This document shows, piece by piece, positions 1-15,142 of a DNA stretch of 32,863 nucleotides. The translations under genes were made by a program, and so were the position numbers. Numbering within the stretch: position 1 is the stretch's first letter; every line of letters begins with the position of its first letter. The notes under the pieces were generated by a model, which saw nothing but the letters and a program-made list of their open reading frames with translations, had not been told where the DNA came from and did no database searches. This DNA comes from Eubacteriaceae bacterium (GTDB lineage: Bacteria; Bacillota; Clostridia; Eubacteriales; Eubacteriaceae), in the NCBI GenBank assembly GCA_012522805.1, contig JAAYJS010000040.1:1-32863 (forward strand). The letters run 5' to 3'.

Positions 1-314
1 AAATCTAACATTTTATTAATTACTGTTCCTTTTCTAATCCAGACAGTTTTTGCATTCCATATTCCATTGTTTAAATGGTAAAAATAAAAATATTTCAATT
101 CTGTTCTTAACCACAGATTTTTAACACGTTCAAAACGAACCCAACGATTCCTTAAAGCAGGATTCTTACTTAATTCTATGGCAGAAGGATGTGGACATTT
201 TCTTATATCCCAACTATTATTAGCCCAAAACCCCTGCATTTCTTCATTCATTACAGCTATTTTTTTGCTAATCTCACTCTGACTAATAATTTTCCTTTTA
301 CTAGAAGCATTCAT
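1..314 (-). CDS. tnpB: Tn554-type transposase B, N-terminal part (cut by window edge)
   Basis: Reading leftwards from an ATG at 314 there is an open frame to the window edge (about 104 codons). It begins [16 protein letters not shown] and contains [16 protein letters not shown], which I recognise as the start of the Tn554 TnpB protein. TnpB is the large second tyrosine recombinase that acts with TnpA and TnpC in transposition of Tn554-family elements. The start codon overlaps the tnpA stop in an ATGA (314-311), so the two are translationally coupled, and AGGAG lies about 8 bases upstream of the start, inside the end of tnpA. The catalytic half, tnpC and any cargo (Tn554 relatives carry resistance genes) lie left of position 1 and cannot be seen. 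Confidence 0.85.
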
Positions 315-1396
315 TTCTTATGCTCCTTTCTCTCAAGGTATTTATTAAACTCATTTTTCATATCCTGATCTGAAAGATGAACATAGGTATTTAACGTTGT
401 CTGAACATGTGCGTGACCTAATCTCTTTTGAACGAACGCAACATCCCATCCTTCCCTAATTAGCTGCGTTGCGTGAGTGTGGCGAAGCATATGTGATGTA
501 AATTCTATTCCAGTCCTTTTAACTATTCTTCTAACTAGATCAAGAACACTTTGGTACTTTAGTGGTTTCCCAAAATAGCCTTCTTTTAAGGAAATAAAAA
601 CATAATCATGCTCCAATTCCTCACTATACTCATATATCAAGTAATCTGTATAAAGTGACATAAGTTCTTTACTCACATGTATTGTTCTTTCCTTCCTTAA
701 TTTAATATAAGCTTCATTAACATTAACATCTCTAGGTGTTAAATGGATTTGATTGTCCCAAGTGACAATATCTTCAAGCCTAAGCGATAACACTTCACCG
801 ATTCTTAAACCACCCTCATACATAAGCATTAAAATTAATTTATCTCTTTTCGTATGACAAGCATCAATAATTTGCTTAACTTCCTTTGATCTCAATGTTC
901 TTATCTGTTTCTTTTTAACCCTTAACTTTAAGACATTCTTTTGGTATCTACCCTTATTAACATGATGTAAAAATCCTTTGAAATTTCTTCCCTTTGCTTG
1001 TTTAAATACATCAATTGATTTAAATTCTCCTAATCTACTTAAATAATCAAGAAAACTCATAACTACATTTAAAATTGTATTCACTGTCGTTTCTTCTCTT
1101 ATGGCTTTTTTTGACTGAAGATCAATTACATTTGATGCTGAAGGATATCTCAACCAACCTACGAAGTCTGCTAACAACTCAAAGTTAATATCATTAAGAA
1201 TAACACCTCTCTGTTCCATGAACTCGTACAGCAACTTTAAATGATAGCAGTATGCCTTAATGGTATTAGGAGACTTACCAGTATTATCTAAGTATTTAAT
1301 AAATTTCATTACTGGTTCTATTAGCTGGTATTCTTTATCTAGTAATAAATACAATGGATACGGCTTATTCTCCACTTCTATCCTTTGAACCTTCAC
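311..1396 (-). CDS. tnpA: Tn554-type transposase A (tyrosine recombinase)
   Basis: This is a 361-residue tyrosine recombinase, the same length as Tn554 TnpA. An N-terminal SAM-like core-binding domain (about 20-140, with [21 protein letters not shown]) precedes the catalytic domain. The catalytic residues are visible: Arg198 in [11 protein letters not shown], His302 and Arg305 in HMLRHTHAT, His328 in RLGHAH, and nucleophile Tyr338 in LNTYVH. It cuts and rejoins DNA at the element ends and target site through a covalent Tyr-DNA link. The start is GTG at 1396: the ATG just upstream (1399) runs straight into a stop, and AGAGGTGGG at 1402-1410 is correctly spaced. It overlaps tnpB by 4 bases. It is more AT-rich than the flanking chromosome, as expected for acquired DNA. 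Nothing suggests it is inactive. Confidence 0.95.
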
Positions 1397-7117: not shown

Positions 7118-7621
7118 TTGAAAACAGTAGAAAAGAAAGTCGTTACGCTAAATGTAAACGGTAAAACCTACGATTTTTTAGTAGGAGATGGAATACACGA
7201 GGTGAGCGAAGGTGAGACCTTGGCAGTGACACTGCGTGATCGTTTGCATTTAACCGGTTTAAAGATCGGGTGCGATCAAGGAGCTTGCGGTAGCTGTACG
7301 GTAATTATGGACGGGTTGGCAATTGCTTCCTGCATGACATTAACCTTAGACTGCGCAGGTAAATCCATTACAACCATCGAAGGATTAGCAGATTCTGAAA
7401 CCGGCGAATTAAGCGGTCTTCAACAATCATTCGTCGATAATTGTGGATTCCAATGCGGTTTCTGAACAGCCGGTATCATCATGGCGTCGGAAGCACTTTT
7501 AGAAAAGAAACCTAAACCATCGGAAGAAGTGCGCGAAGCTCTTTCCGGAAACTATTGTCGTTGCGGAACCCACTACACGGCTGTAGATGCGGTGATGGCT
7601 TATGTCAACCGAGAGGAGTAA
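7118..7621 (+). pseudogene. Mo-hydroxylase 2Fe-2S subunit with in-frame UGA at a cluster cysteine
   Basis: This frame of 167 codons matches the small electron-transfer subunit of xanthine dehydrogenase/CO dehydrogenase-type molybdenum hydroxylases. The plant-ferredoxin-like cluster uses Cys52, Cys57, Cys60 and Cys72 (GCDQGACGSC). The second, all-helical cluster domain has Cys113 in QCGF, then the UGA codon (7463-7465) at residue 116, then TAGIIMAS, and finally Cys147 and Cys149 in NYCRCGTH. Family members read CGFC(T/S)xG, so the UGA replaces a ligand cysteine. The frame continues to TAA at 7619-7621, 5 bases before the large subunit. The start is TTG 7118 with GAGGAGG upstream. Readings: nonsense mutation (favoured, since the next gene is also interrupted), selenocysteine, or sequencing error. 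Confidence 0.75.
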
Positions 7622-7626
7622 AAACA

Positions 7627-9972
7627 ATGAGTGAAGAGAGAGTAGTACGTAAACCGTACCAAGAAAAAGAACTGAAATATGTAGGTAAAGAGATACCTCG
7701 TCTTTTAGGAAAGGATCTTGTAACCGGTAAAGCGAAATTTACAGGCGATATCAGACTGCCCAACATGGCTTACGGTCGTGTTTTGAGGTCTCCCCATCCC
7801 CATGCGGAAATCGTATCCATCGACTATTCCCGTGCATTGGAATTGCCGGGTGTGGTGACGGTTGTAACGTATAAGGATGTCCCGGAAGATATGTATATCA
7901 CCAATGGCATGTCTCCGGCAAAACACGCCAAACCCCTCGATAAAATTGTACGCTGCATCGGCGATGCCGTTGCACTTGTCGTTGCGGAAACAGAAGAAAT
8001 GGCCGACGAGGCGATGGAATATATCGATGTCGAATATGAACTATTGAAACCGGTACTGACCATCGACGAAGCTCTGGCTGAAGATGCACCGCAAATTTAC
8101 CCACAACTTCCGGGAAATACAGCTCCGCTGACCTTTTTCTTGGTAGATAACATAGATTGGGAAGAAGGCGATGTCGATCAAGCTTTAACAGAAGCGGATT
8201 GTGTCATCGATTTGGACACCAACTTGATGAGTGCACAGAACCCGTTGACAGCAGAGGCACCGACCATTATCGGAGATTGGAACGGCGAGGATATCTTAAC
8301 CCTCTACGCTTCCTGCGCTGCACCTTCCTATACCGCTTTTAACGTCGGCGCTTCCATGAACAAACCCTATGAGCAAATTCACGTTATCGCACCTTGCTGC
8401 GGTGGTAGTTTTGGCTCTAAATTGTTTATGGGTAACGTACACCCCTTGCTGTTTGCCGCTTTAATGTCTAAAAAAGCTGACAGACCGGTTATGTACGCTA
8501 TGACAAAAGAAGAACACTTTGCCGCCAACCAAATTCGTATGAACATGAAGGCAAATGTCAAAATAGGTATCAACAAAGATGCCAGCGTCACCGGTGTTGC
8601 CCTCCGTCAATGGTGTGAAGCCGGAACCGCGGCGACCTCTCAAGAAAATATGATGAGCGTCGGTGGGATCTCCATGTCTATGATGTGTCGTACCACCAAT
8701 ATGCGCTATAAAGGCGATGTCGTCATGACCAATCGTTTGCCCTCCGGTTCTTTCCGAGGCTACGGTTATATGGAAACCACCGCTATCATTGCACGCGCTA
8801 TTTTCAGAGCTTGTCGAGAATTGGATCTTGATCCCTTCGATTATTTCGTAAAGAATGCCTTGACCCATGGTGGTATGTACTATAACTCCTTGGCCATCGG
8901 TCGCGAGTGGCAAAAGAGTGTCTCCCCGGATTGGAAAGACATGGTCATTGCCTCCGGCGAAAAGTTCAGATGGAAAGAGCGTTTTAAAGGCTGGGGCGTT
9001 CCAACCAAAGTGGATGGCGCAAAACGCAGAGGCGTTGGTTGCTGCCTATGCGGTCAATCCGACCTTGGCGGTATGGCCTCCAACACCAACATTATGTTGA
9101 ATTCCCAAGGTGGTGTGATCGTTCAGACATTGATGAACGAACACGGAACCGGGGTCCGGGATGTCTATCGTAAAATTGTAGCAGACGAGTTGGAAATTCC
9201 AATCGTGAATGTTACGATTGCCCATGCCAATACGCAAACATCCCCCAGCGACTTCGGTAGTATGGCTGCCAGAAGTACTTATGCCGGTGGTATGTCTGCG
9301 ATGTATGCTTGCAAAGACTTGAAAAAGAAAATTGCCGAGCAAACAGAAAAAAGATTGGGCATTCCAGCGGAGGATGTCGAATTTAAAGGTGGATTCATCG
9401 TTCGTAAATCCAATCCCTAAGAAAAGCATGTTGTTCCTGAAATTCTTATTTCACCCAACAGTTTAACCGGAACCGGACACTGGGACGGCGTAGAAAACGG
9501 AAACCTTTGCAACATGCAGTACGTTGAAGTTGAAGTCGATACCGAAACCGGCCTTGTCAAACTGGTCGACCAATTGTCGGGCGTCGATGCTGGACGTGTT
9601 GTCAACCCGTTAGGACTTAAAAACCAAATAGAATCTTTCTATCCGGGTATCGATATGGCGTTAATGGAAGAAACCGTTTTTGATCCCTTTGACAACCGAG
9701 TCTTATCTGCAAGTTTAATCGATTATAAAACGCGTACCTTTAATGAAGTATCCCACCACGATATGACCATTTTAGAATCAAATATAGACAAAGAAAACGT
9801 CTTTGCTTTTGGTGCAATGGGTATCGCAGAACCTTGTATGACACCCAGTGGGCCGGCTGTAACGATGGCTATTTATAATGCCATAGGCGTAGAAGTACTG
9901 GAATACCCCTATACACCGCAGAAAATACTGGATGCGATCCGTTCCAAAAAGAAGAGGAGGATAAATAGATGA
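7627..9972 (+). pseudogene. Mo-hydroxylase molybdopterin (large) subunit, interrupted by an in-frame UAA
   Basis: This 781-codon frame corresponds to the molybdopterin-cytosine-dinucleotide-binding catalytic subunit (XdhA/CoxL/HcrA family). The N-terminal a/b hammerhead domain (about 20-130) is followed by the cofactor domains with PCCGGSFGSK, FRGYGYMETT and MAARSTYAGGM. A TAA at 9418-9420 (codon 598) interrupts it, but the same frame continues with clear family sequence (VDTETGLVKLVDQLSGVDAG). It goes on to GIAEP with the expected active-site Glu735 and ends at 9972, overlapping the next gene by ATGA. Termination at the TAA would remove the active-site Glu, so the product would be inactive. 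The family hydroxylates purines, nicotinate or aromatic CoA esters; the substrate here is not readable. Confidence 0.85.
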
Positions 9973-12341
9973 AAAGTTTCAATCTTTTAAAGCCACAATC
10001 TCTCGAAGAAGCTACCAGTCTCCTCGCAGAAGAAAAAACAGTTGCTTTAGCCGGAGGGACCGACCTGTTAGGCGTCCTGAAAGATAAAATTTTACCGGAA
10101 TACCCATTAAATGTTGTCGATTTAAAAACCATCGACGGATTGAATGAAATCCGTCAAGACGATAAAGGCATCAGTATCGGTGCCATGGCAACTTTATCAG
10201 AAATTGCCGAATCCGATATCATCAAAGAAAATGCCCCGGCATTGGTGGATGCAGCAAAATCCGTCGCTCACTTAAATATTCGAAATGTCGGGACTCTAGG
10301 TGGTAACCTATGCCAAGACTCTCGCTGCTGGTACTACCGTTACCCACATCAAATTGGTGGACGGGTAGACTGTGCCAGAAAAACAGGTGACGTCTGCTAC
10401 GCACTGATGGGCGAAAACCGCTACCATTCTATTTTTGGTGGCGCTAAAGTTCATACCTCTGCATGTAACCAGAGTTGTCCTACAGGGACCGATATTCCCG
10501 GTTACTTAGAGAGAGTGCGAGCGGGAGATATCGACGGCGCTGCTAGAATCATCATGAAAGTCAACCCGATGCCCGCCATTACCAGCCGTGTCTGTGCACA
10601 CTTCTGTATGGAAGGCTGTAAACGCCAATCCTATGACGAAAGTGTCAACATCGGCGCCATAGAGCGCTATGTCGGCGATTATATCTTAGAACATGCCGAT
10701 CGTTTTATGAAAGCACCGGAATTTGAAAACGGCAAATCCGTAGCGATTGTTGGTGCAGGGCCGGCAGGCTTAACCGCGGCTTATTACCTACGCGATGCGG
10801 GTTACAAAGTAACCTTCTTTGAAAGAATGGCGAAAGCCGGAGGCTGCTTAACCTATGCCATTCCGCCTTATCGCTTACCGAAAGATATTGTCGATAAATT
10901 CATTCAAGCCTTGGAAAATATGGGTGTTGTCTTCAATCTCAAAACCCATGTTGGCGAAGAAGGCATGCCACTAGAAGAAATTCACAAAAACTATGACAGT
11001 GTCATGTTGGATACCGGCGCTTGGAAAAGACCGCTTATCGGTATTTCCGGCGAAGAAATGACCCGTTTTGGTTTGGACTTCTTAGTCGATGTCAACCACT
11101 TTATTCTAGACCGTCCCGGTGCCAAAGTCATCGTAGTCGGTGGTGGAAACGTCGCGGTGGACGTAGCTGTGACAGCTAAACGTTTAGGTTCTAAAGATGT
11201 CAAATTGGTCGCCCTAGAACCGAGAGATCGGATGCCCGCAGGAACCGAAGAAATCGAGCGTCTCGTCAACGAAGGCATCGAAATCATCAACGGTTGGGGT
11301 CCAAAAGAAATCATTAAAGATGAAAAAGGCGTTTCCGGCATGGTCTTTAAAGCTTGCCCGAAAGTCTTTGACGAAACAGGCAGATTTGCACCGGTTTATG
11401 ATGAAAGTCGTTTAATGACCTTAGATGGCGACGTCGTCTTGATGGCTATCGGCCAAGTTGCGGATTTGGATTTCTTGGAAGGCTCCTTCGAAATCGAAAC
11501 CGAAAGAGGCCGCATCAAAGCCCTCGAAGGCAACCAAACCAGTGTGGAAGGTATTTACGCAGGTGGCGATGTGACCACCGGTCCGGCAACCGTTGTAGAA
11601 GCGGTAGCGGCAGGTAAAAATACCGCTGTCCACATGAACCACTACTTGATGGGTGAGAATAAAAATCTGGAATTGGAAGATTACGACCCTAAGGACAAAA
11701 ATCGCTTGCTCAGCTTTACCGCTGATACCTACGAAAGAGTCGAAGCGATCGAAGCTCCGGAATCCGACGAATTGAACGTTCTGGACGAAGATGTGTTGGA
11801 ATTGGCTAAAGATGCCATCGTCGCCGAAGCTTCCCGTTGTGTCAACTGCGGTTGCTTGGCAGTGAATCCCAGCGATATGGCCAACATGCTTATAGCGATG
11901 GGGGCAAAGCTCAAAACCAATCAAAGAACCGTCAGCGCTGAAGTCTTCTTTACCAGACGTACAAAGATTACCGATCAATTGCGCCCGGCAGAAATCGTCG
12001 AGGAGATCCTCATTCCGAAATTACCGGAAAATACCGTGGCCAGTTACGATAAATTCCGACTGCGTGAAACCATCGACTTTGCAATCGTCGCATTGGCTTC
12101 CGTCTTCACCATGGAAGAAGGGAAAATTAAAAATGCCGACTTGGTATTGGGTGCCGTTGCACCGATTCCGATTCGTTGTAGCGAAGCTGAAGCTTTCTTA
12201 ATGGGTAAAGAACCCACAGAGGAAGTAGCCCGTGAAGCGGCGGAAATCGCTCTTAAAGATGCACTGCAATTACCGCATAACGAATTTAAAATCGTCAATG
12301 CTAAGACTTTAATTCGCAGAGCGGTTGAAGCGTTAGCTTAA
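9969..12341 (+). CDS. Mo-hydroxylase FAD subunit with a nested GltD/NfnB-like oxidoreductase domain
   Basis: This is a 790-residue fusion. Residues 1-158 are the FAD-binding part of a CoxM/HcrB-type subunit (ALAGGTDLLG, RNVGTLGGNLC), with Cys residues in SRCWYY, VDCARK and DVCYAL resembling the 4Fe-4S loop of 4-hydroxybenzoyl-CoA reductase beta. At SIFGG (154-158) a block of about 470 residues intervenes. It has a Fer4-type N-terminus (CNQSCPTGTDIPGYLERV, RVCAHFCMEGC), an FAD-binding GAGPAG (262-267), an NAD(P)-binding GGGNVA (391-396) and a closing RCVNCG. From Cys629 (CLAVNPSDMANML) the FAD-subunit fold resumes to the C-terminus. It probably links the hydroxylase to NAD(P)H or ferredoxin. 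It overlaps the large-subunit stop by 4 bases and is itself intact. Confidence 0.9.
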   Translation: MKSFNLLKPQSLEEATSLLAEEKTVALAGGTDLLGVLKDKILPEYPLNVVDLKTIDGLNEIRQDDKGISIGAMATLSEIAESDIIKENAPALVDAAKSVAHLNIRNVGTLGGNLCQDSRCWYYRYPHQIGGRVDCARKTGDVCYALMGENRYHSIFGGAKVHTSACNQSCPTGTDIPGYLERVRAGDIDGAARIIMKVNPMPAITSRVCAHFCMEGCKRQSYDESVNIGAIERYVGDYILEHADRFMKAPEFENGKSVAIVGAGPAGLTAAYYLRDAGYKVTFFERMAKAGGCLTYAIPPYRLPKDIVDKFIQALENMGVVFNLKTHVGEEGMPLEEIHKNYDSVMLDTGAWKRPLIGISGEEMTRFGLDFLVDVNHFILDRPGAKVIVVGGGNVAVDVAVTAKRLGSKDVKLVALEPRDRMPAGTEEIERLVNEGIEIINGWGPKEIIKDEKGVSGMVFKACPKVFDETGRFAPVYDESRLMTLDGDVVLMAIGQVADLDFLEGSFEIETERGRIKALEGNQTSVEGIYAGGDVTTGPATVVEAVAAGKNTAVHMNHYLMGENKNLELEDYDPKDKNRLLSFTADTYERVEAIEAPESDELNVLDEDVLELAKDAIVAEASRCVNCGCLAVNPSDMANMLIAMGAKLKTNQRTVSAEVFFTRRTKITDQLRPAEIVEEILIPKLPENTVASYDKFRLRETIDFAIVALASVFTMEEGKIKNADLVLGAVAPIPIRCSEAEAFLMGKEPTEEVAREAAEIALKDALQLPHNEFKIVNAKTLIRRAVEALA

Positions 12342-12917: not shown

Positions 12918-13319
12918 ATGAATGAAAAACAACCTTCAAAATTGAACACCGCCATCGGTTCCTTCGTTTTCGGTGGCACCGTGGGCCTCATCGGACAAAT
13001 ATTGTTTACGATTTACCGGACACTGGGTATACCGAAAGCATATGAACTTCCCGCTGTTATTTTAACCGTCGCCTTGATGGGTGGCGTGTTGGCGATACTC
13101 GGAATATTCGAAAAATTCGAACAAAAATTTGGAATGGGCGCCATGATGGGTATGCCGGGGCTAGCCGCCGGTATTGCCGAAGGCATAGCCGCTGCACGTA
13201 GCAACGGAGCATCCACAGGCGAAGCAATAAAAGCCGGATTGGCCGGACCCGGAAAAATTTTTGGAGTCGGTATTTTTGTAGCCATCGTTCTGAGCGCCGT
13301 AAAGCTCTTTATGATGTAG
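12918..13319 (+). CDS. SpoVAC/SpoVAE-family membrane protein
   Basis: This 133-residue hydrophobic protein has about four membrane segments. It opens with FVFGGTVGLIGQILF, the FxxGGxxxxxGQ signature of the SpoVAC/SpoVAEb family. It also contains a glycine-rich GAMMGMPGLAAGIAEGI, where SpoVAC proteins have their conserved GAGxxVPITGFA stretch, and ends with an AGPGKIFGVG segment. SpoVA proteins form the dipicolinic acid channel of spores, but homologues also occur outside the classic spoVA operon and in organisms not known to sporulate. The start ATG 12918 lies 18 bases after the IscU-like gene; the next SpoVA-like gene follows after 15 bases. The exact subfamily is uncertain because it diverges from the canonical motifs. 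Confidence 0.72.
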   Translation: MNEKQPSKLNTAIGSFVFGGTVGLIGQILFTIYRTLGIPKAYELPAVILTVALMGGVLAILGIFEKFEQKFGMGAMMGMPGLAAGIAEGIAAARSNGASTGEAIKAGLAGPGKIFGVGIFVAIVLSAVKLFMM

Positions 13320-13334
13320 CAGGAGGAAGATAAA

Positions 13335-13676
13335 ATGACGTATATTATGGCATTCCTCTTTGGAGGATTCATCTGTCTGCTGGGACAACTGGTCTTTGCA
13401 AACACAAACCTCGGTCCCTTAAAAATTTTTATGAAGGCCATATCCTTGGGTGTTATCCTGACTTTTTTTGGTCCTATGGAATGGATTGTCGAAAAGGGTG
13501 GTGCAGGTGTCATCACCAATATTCTAGATGCCGGTGAGGGTTTGTTTTGGTCCTTTTTTCTCATGTTTCAAGGTCATAGCGAGGCCATCATCAGCTTTAC
13601 CATTATGATCGTCCTGGTTTTAACCATTGGCGTGATTTGTGGATTCTTGACCCCGATTAAAAAAGAACAAGTTTAA
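13335..13676 (+). CDS. SpoVAE-like membrane protein
   Basis: This 113-residue protein of three to four membrane segments begins FLFGGFICLLGQLVF, a clear SpoVA-type GG-ICxxGQ motif. It carries GGAGVITNILDAGEGLFWSF in the middle, the equivalent of the family's conserved GAG loop. The start ATG 13335 follows GCAGGAGGAAG at good distance. It is paired with the preceding paralogue, and channel-forming SpoVA proteins likewise work as multi-subunit assemblies, so the two probably form one complex. No other sporulation gene is in the window, and the only promoter seen upstream is vegetative. A terminator follows directly. Confidence 0.72.
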   Translation: MTYIMAFLFGGFICLLGQLVFANTNLGPLKIFMKAISLGVILTFFGPMEWIVEKGGAGVITNILDAGEGLFWSFFLMFQGHSEAIISFTIMIVLVLTIGVICGFLTPIKKEQV

Positions 13677-13889: not shown

Positions 13890-15142
13890 ATGAAAGTCTA
13901 TATAGAAAACATAATTGCTAGGGAAGTGTACGATTCCAGGGGAACCCGACGGTAGAAGCAGACGTTTATTTAAGTGACGGCTCCTTTGGTCGCGCCTCGG
14001 TCCCTTCCGGCGCCTCCACTGGAGACAGAGAAGCGGTGGAATTAAGAGACGGCGGCCACAGAGTTCAGGGAAAAGGCGTGGCTAAGGCAGTAGAGAATGT
14101 GAACGGTGAAATCCGAAAAGCTCTACTGGAACGAGATCCCTTTAATCAAAAAGAAATAGATACGGTGATGATCGATTTGGATGGAACCGACAACAAAGCG
14201 CGTTTAGGTGCCAATGCCTTGCTTGCGGTTTCAATGGCCAATGCAAGAGCTGCAGCCCAATCGGTTTCTCTGCCATTGTACCGGTATTTGGGAGGGATTG
14301 ATTTAAGCTTACCGCTGGGCTTTTACAATGTGATCAATGGTGGCCAACATGCCGACTCCGGCATCGATACGCAAGAGTTTATGATTGCTCCCGTGGGAGG
14401 CAAAAGCTTTAGAGACGGTTTTGAAATGATCGTTCAAACCTACCACACACTTAAGAAGAGTCTTAAAAAACAAGGGTTAACCACCGCAGTGGGGGATGAG
14501 GGCGGCTTTGCGCCACAATTGGGAACGACGGAAAAGGCCTTGGAAACATTGGTACAAGCTATCGAAGCAGCGGTTTATCGCCCGGGAGAGGATATTGCCA
14601 TTGCATTGGATCCCGCATCCAGTGAGTTTTACAAAGATGGTCACTATCACTTTGAAGGGAAAACCATGACCTCCGAAGAAATGGTGGCTTACTACGAAAA
14701 AATCACAAAGGATTTTCCGATTATTTCCATAGAAGACGGCATGGCGGAGCACGACTGGGACGGCTTTAAGTTGCTGACCCAACGCATTGGTAAGCGCGTT
14801 CAATTGGTGGGTGACGATATTTTTGTTACCAACCCTAAAATTTTCAAAGAGGGGATCGACCGTGGCATCGGCAATGCCATTTTAATTAAACTGAATCAAA
14901 TCGGAACGGTTTCCGAGGCTGTGGAGGCTATTCAATTGGCTCGTCGTCACAATTATGGCACCATGGTATCCCACCGCAGCGGCGAAACCGGAGATACCTT
15001 TATTGCGGATTTTGTGGTTGCCATGGCAGCGGGGCAAATAAAGACCGGTGCCACTGCCAGAAGCGAGCGGATTGAAAAATACAATCAATTGATGAGGATC
15101 GAAGAAGCGTTAGGCAAAGGAACACCGCTGTTTCGTTTTTAA
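13890..15142 (+). pseudogene. eno: Enolase with a one-base frameshift near the start
   Basis: The ATG at 13890 begins [18 protein letters not shown], the normal enolase start, but a base is missing in the run around 13938-13946 and the frame hits TAG at 13953-13955. One base later the correct frame resumes ([20 protein letters not shown]) and stays open to 15142, giving about 417 residues if repaired. All catalytic and metal ligands appear kept: the His of GGQHAD, Glu of [29 protein letters not shown], the Lys of [15 protein letters not shown] and IKTGA. GGQHAD has Gln where GGEHAD is usual. It catalyses 2-phosphoglycerate to phosphoenolpyruvate. The defect is at a short homopolymer, so a sequence error or a very recent mutation is likely. 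Confidence 0.92.

Follow-up and report, generated by a model that had tools for sequence, protein, structure and literature searches.

The question raised by this locus is whether one gene encodes two redox proteins joined end to end or one placed within the other. The window, i.e., the whole stretch of DNA that was analysed (32,863 nt; Eubacteriaceae bacterium, GCA_012522805.1, contig JAAYJS010000040.1, positions 1 to 32,863 of the forward strand), carries at 9969..12341 (+) an open reading frame of 790 codons with no internal stop, which a first-pass annotation had interpreted as the flavin adenine dinucleotide (FAD) subunit of a molybdenum (Mo) hydroxylase with an oxidoreductase inserted in its Fe-S loop. 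Our analyses confirmed that residues 1-158 and 629-790 of the 790-aa protein make up a CoxM/HcrB-type FAD subunit and that a complete GltD/NfnB-like flavoprotein (residues 159-628) is nested in its [4Fe-4S] loop. The gene is composed as follows:

9969..12341 (+), nested FAD subunit gene, 790 aa, intact
9969..10442 (+), CoxM/HcrB-type domain, first half (residues 1-158); FAD_binding_5; Cys 120, 135 and 143
10443..11852 (+), insert (residues 159-628), a circularly permuted GltD/NfnB-like module
10455..10694 (+), Fer4_20 part of the insert (residues 163-242); Cys 166, 170, 209, 213 and 217; Glu 232
10737..11615 (+), two-Rossmann flavoprotein part of the insert (residues 257-549); FAD motif GAGPAG, nicotinamide adenine dinucleotide (NAD) motif GGGNVA, Glu417
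11736..11852 (+), relocated cluster segment of the insert (residues 590-628), ending EASRC624VNC627G; homologous to the canonical NfnB/GltD N-terminus
11853..12341 (+), CoxM/HcrB-type domain, second half (residues 629-790), starting with the invariant Cys629; CO_deh_flav_C; stop codon included

Nested architecture

Pfam searches with the 790-aa protein returned the four domains in nested order, i.e., FAD_binding_5 at 3-118 (E 2.4e-35), Fer4_20 at 163-242 (E 8e-22), Pyr_redox_2 at 257-549 (E 1.3e-38), and CO_deh_flav_C at 693-786 (E 3e-15). Scanning of genome contigs yielded 45 loci; twenty-odd of these contained full-length nested homologues at 40-58% identity, and 19 further homologues of about 325 aa aligned over both flanks with the insert absent. 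At the junction, HAIMGG-KR-CFAVCPSD of the uninserted proteins corresponds to HSIFGG, about 470 aa ending in RCVNCG, and CLAVNPSD of the nested forms, so that the boundaries first placed by eye at SIFGG (residue 158) and CLAVNPSD (from residue 629) were right. When joined without the insert, the flanks gave one continuous match to the solved CoxM-type chain 5y6q_B (residues 4-318, E 2.9e-39) and likewise matched 1rm6_B in one stretch (E 1.6e-30).

Two AlphaFold2 models of the protein were obtained (predicted local distance difference test 82.5 and 86.1; predicted template modelling score 0.82 and 0.85). Over residues 1..790 the model superposed on HcrB 1rm6_B (Z 31.8, root-mean-square deviation (rmsd) 2.7, 294/323 residues aligned) and on the CoxM-type chain 5y6q_B (Z 33.4, 310/330 aligned), with FAD_binding_5 and CO_deh_flav_C forming one CoxM fold. 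Residues 157..562, holding Fer4_20 and Pyr_redox_2 in a GltD/NfnB fold, superposed on NfnB 5jfc_L (Z 39.4, rmsd 1.8, 393 aligned), and comparison of the insert with the NfnABC and StnC structures gave Z 43-46. Domain order, empty-site homologues, the flanks-only match, and superposition on both parent folds thus establish two domains, one within the other, and the homology of the insert to GltD and NfnB was borne out. The results that the first-pass annotation had named as fatal to its reading, flanks failing to form one CoxM-like fold or a terminal position of the central part, did not occur, and an end-to-end fusion was ruled out by the empty-site alignment together with the continuous match of the flanks to a single CoxM chain.

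Some consensus errors are probable on this contig, which might suggest that the nested order is an artefact of assembly or gene calling. An assembly chimera was, however, ruled out by 41 homologues with an identical junction, several of which come from named isolates or lie on long contigs, and a second nested copy occurs in the same genome. With the junction conserved across independent assemblies, an artefact is refuted and its probability is negligible.

Circular permutation of the insert

In canonical NfnB/GltD proteins of the relatives, EAxRCLNC or a close variant stood directly before CxxxCP and never at the end of the protein. One [4Fe-4S] cluster of these proteins takes two ligands from this N-terminal segment, which in the insert would be supplied from the C-terminus. 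The Fer4-type N-terminus proposed in the first-pass annotation was recovered as Fer4_20 at 163-242, only without its usual N-terminal CxxC, which was found at the C-terminus of the insert instead. The EAxRCxNC segment was missing N-terminally from the nested inserts and from StnC-like and other large GltD-type proteins, and was located C-terminally in them, mostly 86-95 residues past the GGD motif. When profiles of the C-terminal segment of nested proteins (25 sequences) and of the canonical N-terminal segment (24 sequences) were compared, the alignment covered 39 columns with a probability of 97.4 (E 1.6e-11). The insert starts with CxxxCP and ends with RCxxCGC, as StnC- and NfnABC-type modules do, and judged by these sequence comparisons it is a circularly permuted GltD/NfnB module.

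Start and end of such a module should meet at one cluster, and this would account for its fit within a loop. The permutation is probably older than the insertion, since the permuted layout is common to StnC and NfnABC. A permuted GltD module with an NADH-type CLE motif was also observed in the C-terminal half of proteins of about 920-970 aa (L056-L061 and L028).

Cysteine set and predicted cluster ligands

Residue conservation was counted over 25 nested proteins. Eleven Cys (C120, C135, C143, C166, C170, C209, C213, C217, C624, C627, and C629) were invariant, as was E232, and this set of 11 Cys and one Glu matches in number the ligands of three [4Fe-4S] clusters, which are most likely what the nested subunit binds. 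C120, C135, C143, and C629 were invariant with and without the insert; the insertion therefore lies between the third and fourth Cys of the CoxM-type cluster. The earlier placement of the insertion in the [4Fe-4S] loop was supported. The last Cys of the module (C627) is two residues from C629 of the hydroxylase, and the invariance of C629 suggests that it is a ligand of the CoxM-type cluster; 5y6q_B has a Cys aligned to it. At the FAD-proximal cluster a Glu ligand has been reported for NfnB and a Lys for StnC (PMC10482914), and E232 aligns opposite the Lys of StnC.

Proposed electron path and nucleotide

In a three-subunit Mo hydroxylase made up of CoxS, CoxL, and an FAD subunit, the nested protein would act as the electron-exchange subunit. 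The CoxM cluster would be bound by C120, C135, and C143 ahead of the insert and by C629 after it, and the RC624-V-N-C627-G-C629 motif would link the insert cluster to the CoxM cluster. We infer a reversible path from NAD(H) via the insert FAD, two insert clusters, the CoxM cluster, the CoxM FAD, and two [2Fe-2S] clusters of CoxS to the Mo cofactor, in which NAD(H) would replace a separate carrier such as ferredoxin. MoaC was found in the genome, so that synthesis of the Mo cofactor is plausible.

In two-Rossmann flavoproteins the choice of nucleotide can be read from the residue that closes beta2 in the second Rossmann fold. This position is Glu417 in the window protein, in place of the NADPH-type Arg pair, and is Glu in 22 of the 25 nested proteins and an NADPH-type Arg in the other 3. 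By this residue rule the nucleotide of the window protein is probably NAD(H), and the enzyme probably exchanges electrons with NADH directly, with no separate carrier protein. Of the wiring to NAD(P)H or ferredoxin envisaged in the first-pass annotation, the link to a pyridine nucleotide was thus supported and narrowed by E417 to NAD(H). In the nested proteins of L022, L024, and L025, YRRT (NADPH-type) replaces CLE after beta2, and the choice seems to have switched there.

Taken as a whole, we consider it likely that the [4Fe-4S] loop of a CoxM-type subunit took up a permuted GltD/NfnB-like flavoprotein as a built-in NAD(H) wire. Several observations weigh against this explanation: both partner genes have in-frame stops in this assembly (see below); the loop near residues 122-141 is poorly predicted in the structure model; the last loop Cys of Thauera HcrB aligns earlier than C629, i.e., its fourth Cys is elsewhere; the ligand pairing assumed inside the insert follows NfnB by analogy; and in a regular-expression check the exact RCxNC pattern was not seen in two nested members.

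Bifurcation and reaction direction

The homology to NfnB, the invariant R302 (the matching Arg of the IPxYRLPK motif), and a Glu (E232) at the cluster-ligand position would suit an insert FAD that, like that of NfnB in NfnAB, bifurcates or confurcates electrons among NAD(P)H, ferredoxin, and the hydroxylase, and the first-pass annotation had raised bifurcation as a speculative option. It was not supported. A conserved fourth gene (NfnA, ferredoxin, or HydB) was sought at 26 nested loci and none recurred, the CoxM side is a linear chain with no second branch, and the motif Arg is kept in StnC too, whose FAD is reported to be non-bifurcating (PMC10482914). Among solved structures the insert is most closely related to StnC and NfnABC, which have the same permuted layout, and in StnC a GltD module connected to additional clusters forms a linear NADPH wire (PMC10482914). 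Bifurcation is accordingly very unlikely, and the proposed electron path does not require it.

For an NAD(H) wire the direction of electron flow has to be considered separately. The insert may serve as a reductive input, with NADH driving reductive dehydroxylation or a similar reaction at the Mo site in the direction of 4-hydroxybenzoyl-CoA reductase (4-HBCR). The closest solved chain to CoxL, as judged via the L007 orthologue, is 4-HBCR alpha, the same four-Cys loop is present in uninserted relatives, and an Nfn-like protein has been implicated in providing electrons for a different aromatic reductase (PMC9973337). The 4-HBCR equivalog models, however, scored far below their curated cut-offs (TIGR03195 and TIGR03194; 135 bits against 404.55 for the nested protein with the NCBIfam HcrB model, and 258 bits against 994.55 for the CoxL part), and PucR-type regulators near some loci suggest purine-type substrates. 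NADH is moreover a weak donor for such reductions. A reductive input is therefore a possibility that we take seriously and lean away from, and oxidative hydroxylation with NAD+ as acceptor is slightly preferred over the reverse direction. Genes for corrinoid proteins and URO-D-type methyltransferases were found beside nested copies in the genome of the window and in G001 (L052, 11006-13805 (-), and L063, 813-8049); these methyltransferase neighbours could hint at methoxy-aromatic substrates.

Neighbours, distribution, and history

The only neighbours of nested genes that recurred among the 26 nested loci were CoxS and CoxL; regulators (PucR, TetR, LysR, IclR) and MobA-like genes occurred at a few. 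The 41 nested members examined came from Bacillota, Synergistota, deltaproteobacterial, and Chloroflexota genomes (in the last case on Chloroflexota contigs), and shared the nested order and a single uniform junction, and thus make up a conserved subfamily; their partner Mo subunits were diverse. At E <= 1e-100, a threshold that GltD-only proteins among the relatives did not reach, nested matches were obtained in 3 of 391 genomes sampled from the class of the window, in 5 of 188 from the phylum to which the Synergistaceae contig L007 belongs, and in 11 of 395 from the phylum of L029 (deltaproteobacterial), one of these 11 being shortened by a stop. The second nested copy in the window's genome had 46% identity. 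A search of plasmids yielded no nested form and one GltD-only match.

On a tree of the flanks alone the nested label required 2 changes (mean after shuffling, 14.7), and 3 when the loop columns were left out. In the insert tree, 41 nested modules fell on one side of a branch when five distant rows were left out (SH-aLRT 99), and 2 changes were needed with these rows kept. These trees fit one main insertion, and there may have been a few secondary gains or losses. The tree of the partner CoxL required 7 changes, and in a matched set of loci at least 4 CoxL-tree changes were forced by well-supported branches against 2 in the flank tree. This excess is suggestive, at limited backbone support, of a nested FAD subunit that was exchanged among different Mo subunits as a portable adaptor. 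A more far-reaching history, in which splicing of the permuted NAD(H)-linked flavoprotein through the [4Fe-4S] ligand set happened essentially once and the resulting FAD subunit spread to different Mo hydroxylases in several phyla as an interchangeable adaptor, bifurcating or confurcating electrons in some of them, is very improbable as a whole.

State of the operon

The two partner genes lie upstream of the nested gene on the same strand:

7118..7621 (+), coxS-like [2Fe-2S] subunit gene, partner of the nested subunit; TTG start likely; in-frame TGA at 7463-7465
7627..9972 (+), coxL-like Mo subunit gene, 74% identity to the L007 orthologue; in-frame TAA at 9418-9420

Each stop is one substitution away from a likely sense codon, and the TGA sits at the cluster Cys of QCG(F/Y)C-T, which was shown by 36 of the relatives' CoxS checked. 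Selenocysteine at the TGA was rejected as unlikely, as searches of the genome detected no SelA and no tRNA-Sec above the cut-off; the coxL TAA could not encode selenocysteine. The genome holds another nested operon, split across contigs C33 and C45, in which coxS is intact and coxL is present at least in its first part. This second operon, the two stops, and the failure to detect selenocysteine machinery would all be expected of a decaying pseudogene operon whose nested subunit has no working partner in this genome. Against decay, coxS and coxL are otherwise intact, coxL keeping 74% identity to L007, and so is the nested reading frame. In addition, the only enolase gene of full length in the genome, located about 1.6 kb downstream (window 13891-15142), is frameshifted by 1 base near 13950, which makes consensus errors on the contig plausible. 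We therefore regard decay as unlikely, without dismissing it. Four findings go beyond the first-pass annotation: the circular permutation, the split Cys set, the wide distribution, and the in-frame stops of coxS and coxL.

Elsewhere in the window, a phage-type integrase gene was located at the left end (311-1396 (-)), adjoining two ABC half-transporter genes, and a SpoVAC/SpoVAEB-like gene pair in tandem at 12918-13676.

Significance

The protein is a clear natural case of one electron-transfer enzyme spliced within another through the Cys set of a metal cluster, apparently enabled by a circular permutation that placed both module ends at their own cluster. It predicts Mo hydroxylases of gut bacteria, acetogens, and anaerobic deltaproteobacteria that would need neither ferredoxin nor a separate reductase, and whose nucleotide choice could be read from a single residue. 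RCxNCGC provides a searchable signature for this predicted class, and the arrangement offers a principle by which flavin modules could be connected to Fe-S chains in protein design.

Comparison with known systems

No description of the nested architecture or of a circular permutation of GltD was found in the open-access literature searched, of which coverage was partial, so that an earlier account is possible. HcrB (1rm6_B) and the PaoB-type/aldehyde-oxidase medium subunits (5g5g_B, 5y6q_B) share the CoxM fold, the extended Cys-rich loop, the FAD domain, and the CoxS and CoxL partners; they lack the insert, and in Thauera HcrB the fourth Cys is placed differently. NfnB/NfnL and GltD (5jfc_L, 4ylf_B, 6s6s) have the Fer4_20 and two-Rossmann FAD/NAD(P) module in common with the insert (Z 35-39), which differs from them in being permuted, in its NADH-type Glu417, and in its location within another protein. 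A GltD module of the same type is present in YgfK (TIGR03315; YgfK/YgfM/XdhD group) and in PRK12771 proteins, which are separate proteins and not nested, and both models scored under their curated cut-offs; in E. coli the gene for YgfK lies next to that for a Mo hydroxylase. AadN of Rhodopseudomonas palustris is an Nfn-like flavoprotein implicated in supplying electrons to an anaerobic aromatic reductase, but it has both Nfn subunits fused, serves benzoyl-CoA reductase, and stands outside any Mo hydroxylase (PMC9973337). The closest counterparts are StnC (8oh5_C) and the NfnABC large subunit (9bov_A, 9n5u_A), which match the insert to its end with RCxxCGC there (span of StnC and 9bov_A on the nested protein, 165-630). 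Their host part is NuoG/FdhF-like instead of a Mo-hydroxylase FAD subunit, and StnC uses NADPH and operates together with the bifurcating core StnAB, yet StnC also feeds electrons from its GltD module to further clusters (PMC10482914).

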